A DNA stretch of 64,000 nt from Phycisphaerae bacterium (GTDB lineage Bacteria > Planctomycetota > Phycisphaerae > Phycisphaerales > SM1A02). The stretch lies in NCBI GenBank assembly GCA_016845245.1, contig JAERSY010000067.1, positions 1 through 64,000 on the forward strand, given 5' to 3'. Under the pieces are notes generated by a model. That model ran no database searches, had not been told where the DNA came from, and worked only from the letters and a program-made list of their open reading frames with translations. Shown piece after piece: positions 30,857-35,594 of the stretch (position 1 is its first letter; the number at the start of each line of letters is the position of its first letter). The position numbers and the translations under genes were made by a program.

Positions 30857-30885
30857 TTGCGTTTTATTGCCAGTACGCATACCCT
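30857..30885 (+). promoter_or_regulatory. Candidate promoter for the nusA leader RNA
   Basis: TTGCGT (30857-30862) and TACCCT (30880-30885) are spaced by 17 bases and sit upstream of the structured leader. Transcription would start near 30892, just before a hairpin with arms GGTAGCAA and TTGCTGCC (30898-30918). The -10 match is moderate, so confidence is limited. Confidence 0.35.
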
Positions 30886-30947
30886 GTACCGTTTACCGGT
30901 AGCAAATCGGTTGCTGCCATCTGTTTCACTGTGAAAGGAGTGATGTA

Positions 30948-30992
30948 ATGATCCAAAAAGGATCTTTACAACAAGTCAGCCATGACTGCTAA
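30948..30992 (+). CDS. Possible 14-codon leader peptide in the nusA leader
   Basis: ATG at 30948 opens a 14-codon frame, MIQKGSLQQVSHDC, ending TAA. It has a strong AGGAG Shine-Dalgarno (30936-30940) seven bases upstream, better than that of most genes here. Directly before it a start-stop pair, ATG TAA (30943-30948), overlaps its ATG. The peptide's first codons lie in one hairpin and its last codons and stop in the next (30982-31002), so ribosome movement would change folding. No amino acid is strongly over-represented apart from three Gln. Confidence 0.45.
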   Translation: MIQKGSLQQVSHDC

Positions 30993-31117
30993 TCGCAGTC
31001 ATCCCGTGGCCACGTGCCTCTGCGTTGGGCTTGAATGCCTTGGAGGCAATGGCGTGATCTGAGTCATTTGTATGAGGATCGATTGTGTCGTATGACACCC
31101 GTCAGTTACCTGACCAC

Positions 31118-31143
31118 GGGACCGCTTGTCGGCCCCTTTTTTT
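31118..31143 (+). terminator. Intrinsic terminator inside the nusA leader
   Basis: Arms GGGACCG and CGGCCCC (one A-C mismatch) with loop CTTGT are followed by seven T (31137-31143). It stands 60 bases before the nusA ATG and would stop transcription unless the GGG of its 5' arm is held in helix P1. Confidence 0.8.
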
Positions 31144-31202
31144 ATTCCAATAGACAATTCAACATTCAAACAATTAAACAACTACAGAGATAGGAAGAAC
31201 AC

Positions 31203-32645
31203 ATGAACCAAGAAACAATCAGACTCATCGATTCAATTGCAAAACAGCGAAAGATTGACAAAGCTGTCATCATCGCAGACCTCGAACAAGCAATGGTGAG
31301 TGCTGCACGCAAGCACTTCAACTCGCTTGATACGGAAGAGTTTTCATGCAACATGGACGCGCTTACGGGCGAAATTTGCATCTGGCGCCACTTAGACGAA
31401 GGCGCTGTTGAAGTTCCACTTGAAGAATTGGGCAGAATTCCAGCACAAACTGCAAAACAAGTCATGATTCAACGGTTCAGAGAAGATGAACGGTCAGGCA
31501 TTTTTGATGAATACATCGATAAAGCTGGCGAGTTAGTCACTGGAACATGCAGTCGCTATGAAGGCGGTTCACTCATCGTCCAACTCGACAAGGGTGGTCG
31601 CGTTGAGGGCTTTATGCCACGAAGCGAGCAGATTCCTGGAGAACAATTCCGAGCAGGTGACAGAGTTCGTTGTTACATCATCGATGTTCGTGACACAGGC
31701 AGTCAAATCAAAATCGTTCTTTCTCGAAGTCACCACGACTTTATTCGCCGTCTATTCGAAGCGGAAGTCCCAGAAGTCCAAGAGCACGTCATCGAGATTC
31801 ACGCAATGTCTCGTGAGCCCGGCTTTAGAACGAAGATTGCAGTCACCTCAAATGACTCCAAAGTAGACCCAGTTGGCGCATGCGTTGGCGTCCGCGGTTC
31901 CCGCATTCGCAACATTGTTGAGGAACTTGGTGGCGAGAAAATCGACATCGTTCGTTGGAATGAATCAAGTCAAGTGCTCATCTCAAATGCACTGAAACCA
32001 GCAGAAGTCGACGATGTGAGTTTATGTTTTGAACTTGGCCGCGCAACAATTATCGTTCGTGATGACCAATTGTCACTTGCGATTGGTCGTCGAGGTCAAA
32101 ACGTTCGACTCGCTGCTCGATTAACGGGCTGGGACATTGACATTTTGACACCAGAGGAATACCAAAAAGGATTGGAAATCTTGTGGGATGCGTTGAAACC
32201 AGTTGATGGCGTCGAAGAAGAGATGCTCGACCGCATGGCAGCAATGGGCATCATCAGCATTTTCGACGTTGAAGAGATTGGTCGAAACGTTCTTGAAGAA
32301 GACCTTGAGATTCCAAAACAAGTTGCTGACAGAATCATCAACCAAGCGATTGAGCGGTCCAAAGAAGTGACTGAGCAACAAGAAGCTGCAAAACTTGCTG
32401 AAGAAGCATTGCGAGCAGAAGAAGAAGCAGCAGCAGATGCAGTTCTTGCAGCAGCAACTGATGAAGACAGTGAAGCAGCAGCGGATTCGATTCTGAGTTT
32501 TGATGATGACGCTGAAGCAGAGCCAGCGGTTGCTGAAACTAAAACAGAAGAAGCCCCAGTGGTAGAAGAAGTTCAAGAGAGTGTCGAAGAAGTTTCAACT
32601 GCAGATGAAGAAGAAGCTGAAGCAGCAACAACGGAACAGGAATAA
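31203..32645 (+). CDS. nusA: Transcription termination/antitermination factor NusA
   Basis: RNA-polymerase-binding elongation factor, 480 residues. The N-terminal domain (about 1-105) is followed by an S1 domain (about 108-175, GELVTGTCSRYEGGSLIVQL), KH1 with VGVRGSRIRNIVEELGGEKIDI near 225-245 and KH2 with LAIGRRGQNVRLAARLTGWDIDI near 290-312. After residue 360 comes a helix-hairpin-helix-like segment and then a long acidic Glu/Ala/Val tail (about 395-480) of low complexity. It is the first gene of the run to 37887. rimP, usually directly upstream, is missing. NusA is known to act on paused polymerase at hairpins, so control through a terminating leader could be autogenous. Confidence 0.96.
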   Translation: MNQETIRLIDSIAKQRKIDKAVIIADLEQAMVSAARKHFNSLDTEEFSCNMDALTGEICIWRHLDEGAVEVPLEELGRIPAQTAKQVMIQRFREDERSGIFDEYIDKAGELVTGTCSRYEGGSLIVQLDKGGRVEGFMPRSEQIPGEQFRAGDRVRCYIIDVRDTGSQIKIVLSRSHHDFIRRLFEAEVPEVQEHVIEIHAMSREPGFRTKIAVTSNDSKVDPVGACVGVRGSRIRNIVEELGGEKIDIVRWNESSQVLISNALKPAEVDDVSLCFELGRATIIVRDDQLSLAIGRRGQNVRLAARLTGWDIDILTPEEYQKGLEILWDALKPVDGVEEEMLDRMAAMGIISIFDVEEIGRNVLEEDLEIPKQVADRIINQAIERSKEVTEQQEAAKLAEEALRAEEEAAADAVLAAATDEDSEAAADSILSFDDDAEAEPAVAETKTEEAPVVEEVQESVEEVSTADEEEAEAATTEQE

Positions 32646-32676: not shown

Positions 32677-35208
32677 GTGGCAAAGAAAACATCGACAACT
32701 CGAGTCCACCAATTAGCCAAGAAACTTGGCGTTGGTTCTAAGGATATCGTTGCGAAATGTCAAAGTGAAGGGATTCCAGACATCACAAATCACATGTCTG
32801 CTGTATCTGCGGGATTGGCAGCAACAATTAGTGAGTGGTTTAGTGAAAGCACAGGTCAATCTTCAGCAATTGAAACAGCAGAGAAAGTCAACATCGCTGC
32901 AGTAAAAGCCAAAGCAAAGAAGAAGACCAAGAAGAAGACAACGAAGAAGGTGGGTGGCACGAAATCTCCAGCCAAGACGGAAGGCGACTCGGAGACCGAA
33001 GCTGTGAAGCCAGTTGGTCGAAAAATGGATACGCCAACTAAAGCAAAGATGGCTGGTCCTCGCGTCATTCGTATCGAAGAGCCAGAACCAGAGCCGCAAC
33101 CGCGTAGACCTCGCCAAGCGCCAACTGGTCCAGCAGCTCAAATGGGCGGCGGTGTTCGAATGCCCGAACAAATGCCACCTCAAGAAGATGGTGGAAGGGG
33201 TTCGCGACGAAACAAACGTCGAACGAACACGAAACAAACAGAGCGTGGCTCGCGTCAATCCCAACAACAGGACGACCGAAACAATTCAAACTGGAGAAAA
33301 CAAGACCTTCTTGAACGTGAAAACCGTTTAAGAAGAAGTGGTGGATTCTTCAGGCAAGCTCGTCGAGACAGTCAAAAGCGTTCAGATAAACCAGCAGTCC
33401 GTGCAAAAACACTTGCGCAGACTGGCGGCAAAGTCGCGATCTCTGAACCAATCTTTATCAAAGAGCTTTCCGCGGTCACAGGAATCAAAGCAGCAGAGAT
33501 TTTGAAGAAACTCATGCTTGATGGCGAAATGAAAACCGTCAACGATTCTCTTGAAACTGAAACAGCGGTCGAAATGATGATGGAGTTCGGGATTGAACTT
33601 GAAGTGGTTGAAGCAAAAACAGCTGAAGATGTGATTGCAGAATCATTCTCAAGTAGAGAAATCCAAAATGAACAATCACGTTCGCCTGTTGTCACAATTC
33701 TCGGCCACGTTGACCACGGTAAAACATCATTGCTCGATACGATTCGAAGTGCAAATGTTGCAGACGGTGAAGCAGGCGGTATTACGCAGGCAACAAGTGC
33801 ATTTAGAGTGCCTGTTGTTGCAGGCGAAACTGAACGCCTCGTCACGTTTATTGACACGCCCGGCCACGAAGCATTTACAGAAATGCGTGCTCGAGGTGCA
33901 AAAGTAACTGACGTTGTGGTTCTTGTGATTGCAGCAGATGACGGCGTGATGCCACAAACCATTGAATCAATCAACCACGCAAAAGCAGCGGGCGTGCCAA
34001 TCGTTATTGCATTAAACAAGATTGACAAACAACAAGCGACGGATGAAAACATCCAGCGTATTCTTGGTCAACTTGCAGAACACGAGTTAAACCCTGTTGA
34101 TTGGGGCGGTGATATTGAAGTCATCAGAACAAGTGCGATTGAAAAAATTGGCATCCAAGATTTGTTAGAAGTGCTTGATTATCAAGCTGAACTTCTTGAA
34201 TTGAAAGCTGATTTTGAAGGTCCTGCAGAAGGCACAATCATTGAAGCGCATGTTGCAGAAGGTCGCGGGCCAGTTGCAAACATCCTTGTGCAACAAGGTC
34301 GCCTCAAGAAGGGCGACTTCATCGTCGCTGGTCGAGGGTATGGCCGCGTTCGTGCGTTAATGAATGAAAACGGTGAGCAAGCTGAAGAGGGCTTGCCATC
34401 AACGCCGCTCCAAGTACTCGGACTTTCTGAAGTTCCTGATGCTGGCGATAAGTTTTACATTGTGAAATCACTCAAAGAAGCGGAGAATGCAGCTAAAGAA
34501 CGAGTGCAACAACTCAGACAAGCTGAACTGTCGAGAGAAAAGGTCACGCTTGATAACATCTTTGACCAAATGAAGATTGCAGATCAGCGTGAATTGCCAG
34601 TCATTGTTAAAGGTGACGTGCAGGGCTCGATTGAAACGCTACGCTCGACGATTGGAAAAATTGGCAACGATGAAGCCGTGATTGCGATTAAGCACTCAGG
34701 TGTTGGCGGAATCAACGAATCTGATGTAAACCTTGCAGAGGCAAGCGGTGCAATCATCGTTGGCTTTAATGTCACAAGTACTGCGAAAGCAAGACAAGCC
34801 GCCGAGCAAAAAGGCGTTGAGATTCGATATTACGATGTCATCTACGATTTAACAGATGACCTTACAAAAGCACTTGAGGGTCTTCTTGATCCAGAGATTA
34901 AACTTGAAGTGCTTGGTCATGCTGAAGTCAGAGATGTCTTTAGAATTTCGAAAGTCGGCATGATTGCAGGTTGCTATGTGACTGACGGAACAATTGAACG
35001 TCATCAGCAAATTCGTGTGACTCGAGACGGCATTGTGATTGAAGCAGATCGACGCCTCGACCAACTCAAACGATTTAAAGACGACGCGAAGGAAGTCCGT
35101 TCAGGCCAAGAGTGTGGTATGAACATTGACGGTTACTCAGATATCAAGGTTGGCGATGTCATCGAGTGTTACAAATCACTGGAGGTCAAGCGGTCGCTTG
35201 AAGGATAA
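32677..35208 (+). CDS. infB: Translation initiation factor IF-2
   Basis: GTPase that brings initiator tRNA to the 30S subunit. The 843-residue protein starts at GTG 32677 behind GGAG. The IF2-N domain (about 8-60) is followed by a Lys-rich and Arg/Gln-rich disordered region (about 75-245), a second IF2-N-like element (about 255-315), and the G domain with GHVDHGKT (near 343-350), DTPGHEAF (near 393) and NKID (near 447). Domains II to IV complete the protein, with [18 protein letters not shown] marking domain III. Spacing to nusA is 31 bases and to rbfA 2 bases. Confidence 0.97.
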
Positions 35209-35210
35209 AC

Positions 35211-35594
35211 ATGACTCAGCGAACTGACCAAATCAGTACAACTCTACAAAGGGCAATTCAAAAAGTGTTGTCTAAGGGTCTTGCTGACCCACGTGTAAAG
35301 GGACTCATCACTGTGACAAGAGTTGATGTCGCACCTGATCTCACCCAAGCGACTGTGTATTGTTCGGTAACGCCGCATAAACACAGTCAAATTTCAATGA
35401 AGGGTGTTGAATCGGCAGCGACATGGATTCGAAGGCAAGTGTCTGACAATGTTCGATTCAGAAAAATGCCGGCCTTCACATTTAAGTTAGATGAACAATT
35501 GCTAAAGCAACAGGAAGTGTTATCAAGCATTGCTGAAGCAAGAGAAGAAGATGAGCGAAGAGCAAAATCAAATAATCAAAGGACAGAAGAGTGA
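35211..35594 (+). CDS. rbfA: Ribosome-binding factor A
   Basis: Assists late 30S maturation at the 16S 5' end. The 127-residue protein has the RbfA KH-type fold pattern: RTDQISTTLQRAIQKVLSKGLADPRVKGLITVTRVDVAPDLTQATVYCSV in pieces, then WIRRQVSDNVRFRKMPAFTFKLDEQL. It starts 2 bases after infB and its TGA overlaps the next gene's GTG. Position in the nusA-infB cluster is standard. The charged tail (EAREEDERRAKSNNQRTEE) is likely disordered. Confidence 0.93.
   Translation: MTQRTDQISTTLQRAIQKVLSKGLADPRVKGLITVTRVDVAPDLTQATVYCSVTPHKHSQISMKGVESAATWIRRQVSDNVRFRKMPAFTFKLDEQLLKQQEVLSSIAEAREEDERRAKSNNQRTEE

Follow-up and report, generated by a model that had tools for sequence, protein, structure and literature searches.

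The nusA–infB–rbfA operon of the window (the whole 64,000-nucleotide stretch analysed, from a Phycisphaerae bacterium) is preceded by a leader of about 250 nt that carries two short open reading frames, the second of which, ORF2, has a single codon, of variable identity, between its start and its stop. The conservation of the leader and of this minimal ORF is well supported by comparison with related sequences. We lean towards reading the leader as a cis-acting transcription attenuator of the operon that responds to translation initiation. How the levels of IF2 and ribosome-maturation factors are adjusted to demand in bacteria is, to our knowledge, an unsettled question, and we know of no clear general mechanism for the autoregulation of nusA–infB that has been reported since 1985. 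If our reading is true, a leader that gauges initiation with a one-codon “gene” would offer a simple answer, open to experiment, for one bacterial class. The leader also shows that strong selection can act on ORFs much too short for any annotation cut-off.

The leader and its genomic context

The terminator that ends the leader is followed, in order, by nusA (31203–32645; Pfam NusA_N, S1 and KH_5), infB (IF2; 32677–35208; IF-2, GTP_EFTU and IF2_N) and rbfA (35211–35594; RBFA), all on the plus strand, as are the leader features described below. rimP is not the first gene, and a divergent DsbD-like gene is found upstream of the leader. The leader lies directly 5′ of nusA in all loci inspected and is single-copy in 13/13 genus genomes searched with a covariance model (R1), the matches of which are limited to the genus.

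Just upstream of the leader is a putative promoter (TTGCGT, 17 nt, TACCCT; 30857–30885) that a generic promoter scan did not flag. TTGC[GT]T and a TACCCT-like −10 element are kept in 12/12 genus leaders, at a spacing of 17 nt and once of 16. Transcription is expected to start near 30891–30893, about 310 nt upstream of nusA. Inspection of the 59 nt between the terminator and the nusA start revealed no promoter-like pair, and nusA would therefore need readthrough. Comparison with relatives supports the promoter, the two ORFs with their translation signals, the terminator and the place before nusA.

An earlier note on this DNA had suggested either cis-acting control of nusA–infB by attenuation or a free small RNA, and had overlooked both the promoter and the two ORFs preceded by a Shine-Dalgarno (SD) sequence inside the structure. 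The first suggestion is supported by the single copy, the position before nusA, the promoter, a terminator that overlaps helix P1 and the lack of a matching Rfam family, while no positive evidence emerged for the second. An independent small RNA, about 250 nt long and either trans-acting or translated as a mini-mRNA, would fit with the promoter and terminator that bracket the leader; such an RNA is nevertheless very improbable given the single copy before nusA and the apparent need for readthrough across the 59-nt spacer.

Structure of the leader

Sequence and folding bore out the description of 30857–31143 as a structured leader with a competing terminator. A 271-nt stretch is more stable than all 200 of its dinucleotide shuffles (z −4.0), and 30995–31145 folded alone gives z −2.5. 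In the minimum-energy fold, helix P1 closes hairpins P2–P5. Its 5′ strand, the predicted antiterminator (T31002-CCCGTGG-31009; 31002–31009), pairs with CCACGGG-A (31114–31121), and the junction includes P4 (GTGTC/GACAC; 31085–31098) and P5 (GTCAG/CTGAC; 31101–31114). Three hairpins lie upstream, as had been claimed: a 5′ hairpin (GGTAGCAA/TTGCTGCC; 30898–30918), in place of which relatives have a hairpin-like repeat of different sequence, and hairpins H0 (30946–30969) and HA (30981–31002). The intrinsic terminator (31118–31143) consists of GGG (31118–31120), A, CCG, cttgt, CGG and CCC(C), followed by seven T (31137–31143). The GGG that ends P1 is thus the start of the terminator arm, as the earlier note had it, and because it is shared, P1 and the terminator cannot both be fully formed at once. 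This overlap, present in the window and in the genus, is supported by sequence and predicted folding.

Conservation and covariation of the stems had been proposed as a check, and the outcome is divided. The architecture recurs in same-genus relatives, each folded individually, whereas P1 shows little covariation: most of its pairs are unchanged in the alignment, compensatory changes are few, and in L003, one of the relatives, a pair is mismatched. When P1-like pairing was sought automatically across the family, no overall signal emerged (median z −0.1), a rank of ≤5 of 100 being reached in 11/76 family leaders. The terminator hairpin is found at the same place across most of the family; automatic detection overlooked or misplaced it in some leaders, among them that of the window.

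The earlier note knew of no described family of this form, and Rfam scans agree, with no family match for the window leader at E≤5 or for 20 other leaders at E≤2. A sub-threshold match to the Xanthomonas small RNA asX2 (31117–31169, minus strand) coincides with the terminator hairpin. At 23.6 bits against a gathering score of 70, and on the strand opposite to the leader, it was rejected as an identity.

The closest described element is the rimP-leader, a widespread short terminator hairpin before rimP–nusA–infB that is thought to be a feedback attenuator and in most species has no visible antiterminator (PMC2965389). Like it, the leader described here has an intrinsic terminator with a GGG/CCC stem just before the nusA–infB operon; the window's terminator is of the form GGG.../...CCC with seven T, yet has no Rfam match. 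Unlike that short hairpin, for which no ORFs are described, this leader is some 250 nt long, with a leader ORF, a minimal ORF and an antiterminator, and has nusA rather than rimP directly downstream. Autoregulation by NusA has also been inferred for E. coli metY–nusA–infB and S. agalactiae rimP–nusA (PMC4448216). The genes are the same and autoregulation there works by termination in the leader, but we know of no leader ORFs reported for these operons, and the proposed signal is NusA itself. By analogy with the rimP-leader, NusA or another operon product could bind the leader or its terminator directly, with the ORFs secondary. E. coli NusA does repress its own operon, GGGc...gCCC terminators are widespread before rimP–nusA–infB (PMC2965389), and the terminator arms across the family also contain GGG/CCC and often CCACG. 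We consider this explanation improbable, since it leaves the conservation of a start and a stop around a free codon unexplained and neither the window leader nor the 20 others matched Rfam.

The leader ORF

ORF1 (30948–30992) is a leader ORF of 14 codons, with the predicted peptide MIQKGSLQQVSHDC, and is preceded by an SD sequence, AGGAG (30936–30940), that is invariant in the genus alignment. Its frame is kept in 12/12 genus leaders; the sole indel is of 3 nt, and third positions vary most. Peptides of relatives include MILTESLQLFSSYGC and MIQGGSLHLFSRHGC. In genome G035, which lay outside the alignment and was found by the covariance model, ORF1 encodes MVQRGSLQLISSYGC and is followed by GGAGG-ctcagtc-GTG-ATT-TAG and then nusA. 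Outside the genus, SD-preceded ORFs with 12–14 codons after the start are present in 26/67 leaders, against 2.7 in shuffles, and their length peaks at 13 codons after the start.

Both ends of ORF1 are associated with hairpins. H0 (GTAA.GATCC/GGATC.TTAC) covers the start codon with 9 pairs, one of which shows a C-G/U-A exchange in 6/12 genus sequences. The stop codon (TAA, 30990–30992) is in the loop of HA, and in many relatives, read by eye, it is either within a hairpin or at the base of one. HDC, HGC or HDG is a recurrent end of the ORF1 peptide, but conservation of the C-terminal codons is confounded because the same bases form HA. A longer ORF running from HA to the ORF2 motif was rejected by hand, its frame shifting between close relatives.

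Distribution of the minimal ORF

ORF2 (GTG-ATC-TGA; 31054–31062) follows an SD sequence, GGAGG (31042–31046). An SD-preceded ORF with exactly one codon between start and stop is present in 77/96 leaders of the same family, whereas 200 shuffles gave 5.4±2.1 on average and 11 at most; such shuffles overstate independence since the leaders are related by descent. Against mere descent, the minimal ORF is found in several other families and in about 38 of the 43 family genera sampled (at least one per genus by hand tally, a few of them weak), with its start, codon, stop and length changing. Among all lengths of SD-preceded ORF counted in the family leaders, that of one codon is the clear outlier. 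A second set of leaders taken from genome contigs, whose species partly overlap those of the first, contains the one-codon ORF in 62/78 cases. The background of the pattern in the window at large is low, at 0.28 per kb.

The minimal ORF extends beyond the family. Of the 16 remaining leaders of the order, 12 have it, with one codon, where 0.2 would be expected with ATG starts. In 71 leaders from other families of the class, ORFs with 0, 1 and 2 codons between ATG and stop are found in 6, 16 and 8 cases, respectively, against an expectation of about 1.3 per length class, with longer ORFs near chance. The minimal ORF thus has one, two or three codons over much of the class Phycisphaerae, and is at chance level in 40 leaders from other planctomycete classes. 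Under the same criterion, no convincing minimal ORF was seen in the sampled leaders of class families f8, f9, f13, f17 and f21, in which nusA is present.

About one fifth of the family leaders lack a one-codon ORF by our criterion, some of them having a weak SD sequence, no codon between start and stop, or no start. Two genera, g33 and g34 (L041, L047, L058, L072, L077 and L090), have TAG or TAA at the place of ORF2, with no start codon or one immediately next to it, which looks like a minimal ORF in the course of shrinking or being lost. A pure start-stop, ATG-TAG after an SD sequence, is found in families f6, f15, f18 and f23 (L205, L206, L208, L197, L187 and L191); all six leaders use the same stop codon, TAG.

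Evidence for translation of ORF2 and its place in helix P3

When any triplet was allowed at the start position, only ATG (56), GTG (26) and TTG (11) were enriched; the fourth triplet reached 6, and CTG 3. The stop is TGA, TAG or TAA, with UGA in 71/80. The codon between start and stop is free and may specify Ile, Thr, Arg, Gly, Met, Val or other residues. We infer from these patterns that ORF2 is translated. ORF2 also lies at the 5′ foot of hairpin P3 (31055–31081), a position that would suit an untranslated structural or protein-binding RNA motif. Such a motif seems highly unlikely, as the enriched triplets are just the three start codons of bacteria, placed at the spacing expected from an SD sequence, all three stop forms occur, and the length differs between families in whole codons.

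The pairing of ORF2 within P3 is indicated by compensatory change among close relatives: ACC pairs with GGT in L080 and L115 (TTG ACC TGA ... CAGGTCGA), and ATC with GAT in L076 (TTG ATC TGA ... CAGATCGA). ORF2 nucleotides are paired only modestly more often than in shuffles (about 0.8 versus 0.6 at best), so the case for P3 rests on these compensatory cases. Because the same bases form ORF2 and a strand of P3, a ribosome on ORF2 and the folded junction would exclude each other.

A proposed mechanism

The earlier note had compared the leader to a riboswitch or a protein-sensing attenuator. The best-conserved signals are instead an SD sequence, a start and a stop around a free codon, and since these are translation signals, the likely ligand is the ribosome. 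Since ORF2 ends at once, its occupancy would reflect initiation, together with release, rather than the availability of any single amino acid or a signal from a peptide. That the operon encodes IF2 and RbfA we count in favour of an attenuator that senses initiation.

Ribosomes that load well on ORF1 (14–15 codons) and ORF2 would keep HA open, together with the part of the junction formed by P2 and P3; P1 could then not form, the 5′ arm of the terminator would be free, and transcription would stop before nusA. Where initiation is weak, for example with too little IF2, the junction would fold and P1 would take up the 5′ arm of the terminator. RNA polymerase would then read into nusA–infB–rbfA, and NusA, IF2 and RbfA would rise, the leader ORFs in this way providing feedback on all three.

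The direction of this control is suggested by folding. In equilibrium predictions with the bases under a ribosome footprint forced to be unpaired, masking at the ORF1 stop and ORF2 raised the terminator probability in 11/12 genus leaders (in L006, from 0.37 to 0.91), and we therefore favour a direction in which ribosomes on the leader ORFs promote termination. Masking ORF2 alone produced a small shift or none in several genus leaders, and for L003 termination is predicted with or without masking. The sign of control could be opposite.

The same anatomy could also serve another signal or work with another sign. Readthrough might be set by a ribosome paused on ORF1, through its nascent peptide or its stop codon, or terminating slowly on ORF2, through release-factor activity or recycling; ORF2 would then report termination or recycling instead of initiation. 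The recurrent ORF1 end with its stop at a hairpin and the predominance of UGA at ORF2 are consistent with this proposal, and two-codon minigenes show pausing and drop-off (PMC8708949). We find it rather unlikely, as the C-terminal codons of ORF1 double as HA, UAG and UAA are also used as ORF2 stops, and in the genus topology the folded junction belongs with the antiterminator. The reading we favour, an attenuator of nusA–infB–rbfA sensing initiation, may apply to the class as a whole: we see the case as evenly poised for a class-wide family of attenuators in which a conserved ORF of one to three codons acts, independently of any peptide, as a sensor of ribosome occupancy that sets transcription of the IF2/NusA/RbfA operon.

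Comparison with known leader ORFs

Two-codon regulatory mini-ORFs and the terminator before rimP–nusA–infB are already known separately. A search of open-access papers yielded no description of a conserved mini-ORF combined with a nusA–infB attenuator. A precedent for control of a downstream gene by a translated upstream ORF and alternative helices exists in trpL, mgtL and pyrL, and in toiL (PMC12121999). The window leader similarly has a short SD-preceded ORF, predicted to be translated, upstream of an intrinsic terminator, and its antiterminator and terminator helices are predicted to be alternatives. Unlike these systems, it has a second ORF whose single middle codon is free to vary, and it probably reads initiation rather than a particular codon or drug.

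The two-codon mini-ORFs of the LEE1 ler leader, the LEE4 espADB leader and axe-txe each affect one operon, at the level of translation or mRNA stability (PMC8708949). The window leader shares with them a very short ORF, of an SD sequence, a start, one codon and a stop, whose action in cis is presumed; it differs in the class-wide conservation of this ORF and in its location inside a proposed transcription attenuator of nusA–infB. Ribosome profiling of start-stop sites in E. coli and C. jejuni indicates that ribosomes initiate on ORFs of 2–3 codons (PMC11955535). Those in C. jejuni are internal, out-of-frame sites, and no conserved attenuator is described there.

Additional features of the nusA locus

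The spacer between the terminator and nusA (31144–31198 in the window, and the same spacer in relatives) contains a motif rich in A and C, similar to GACAACTCAATA and often repeated in tandem. With up to 2 mismatches, this motif is found in 36/97 family leaders, 5/16 order leaders and 12/71 other leaders of the class, against 0.8, 0 and 0.2, respectively, in shuffles, and in 0/40 leaders of other planctomycete classes. At the nusA loci of G163, G177, G104 and G002, the NusA match runs across one or two in-frame TGA codons, which may reflect alignment overrun or a matter of assembly.
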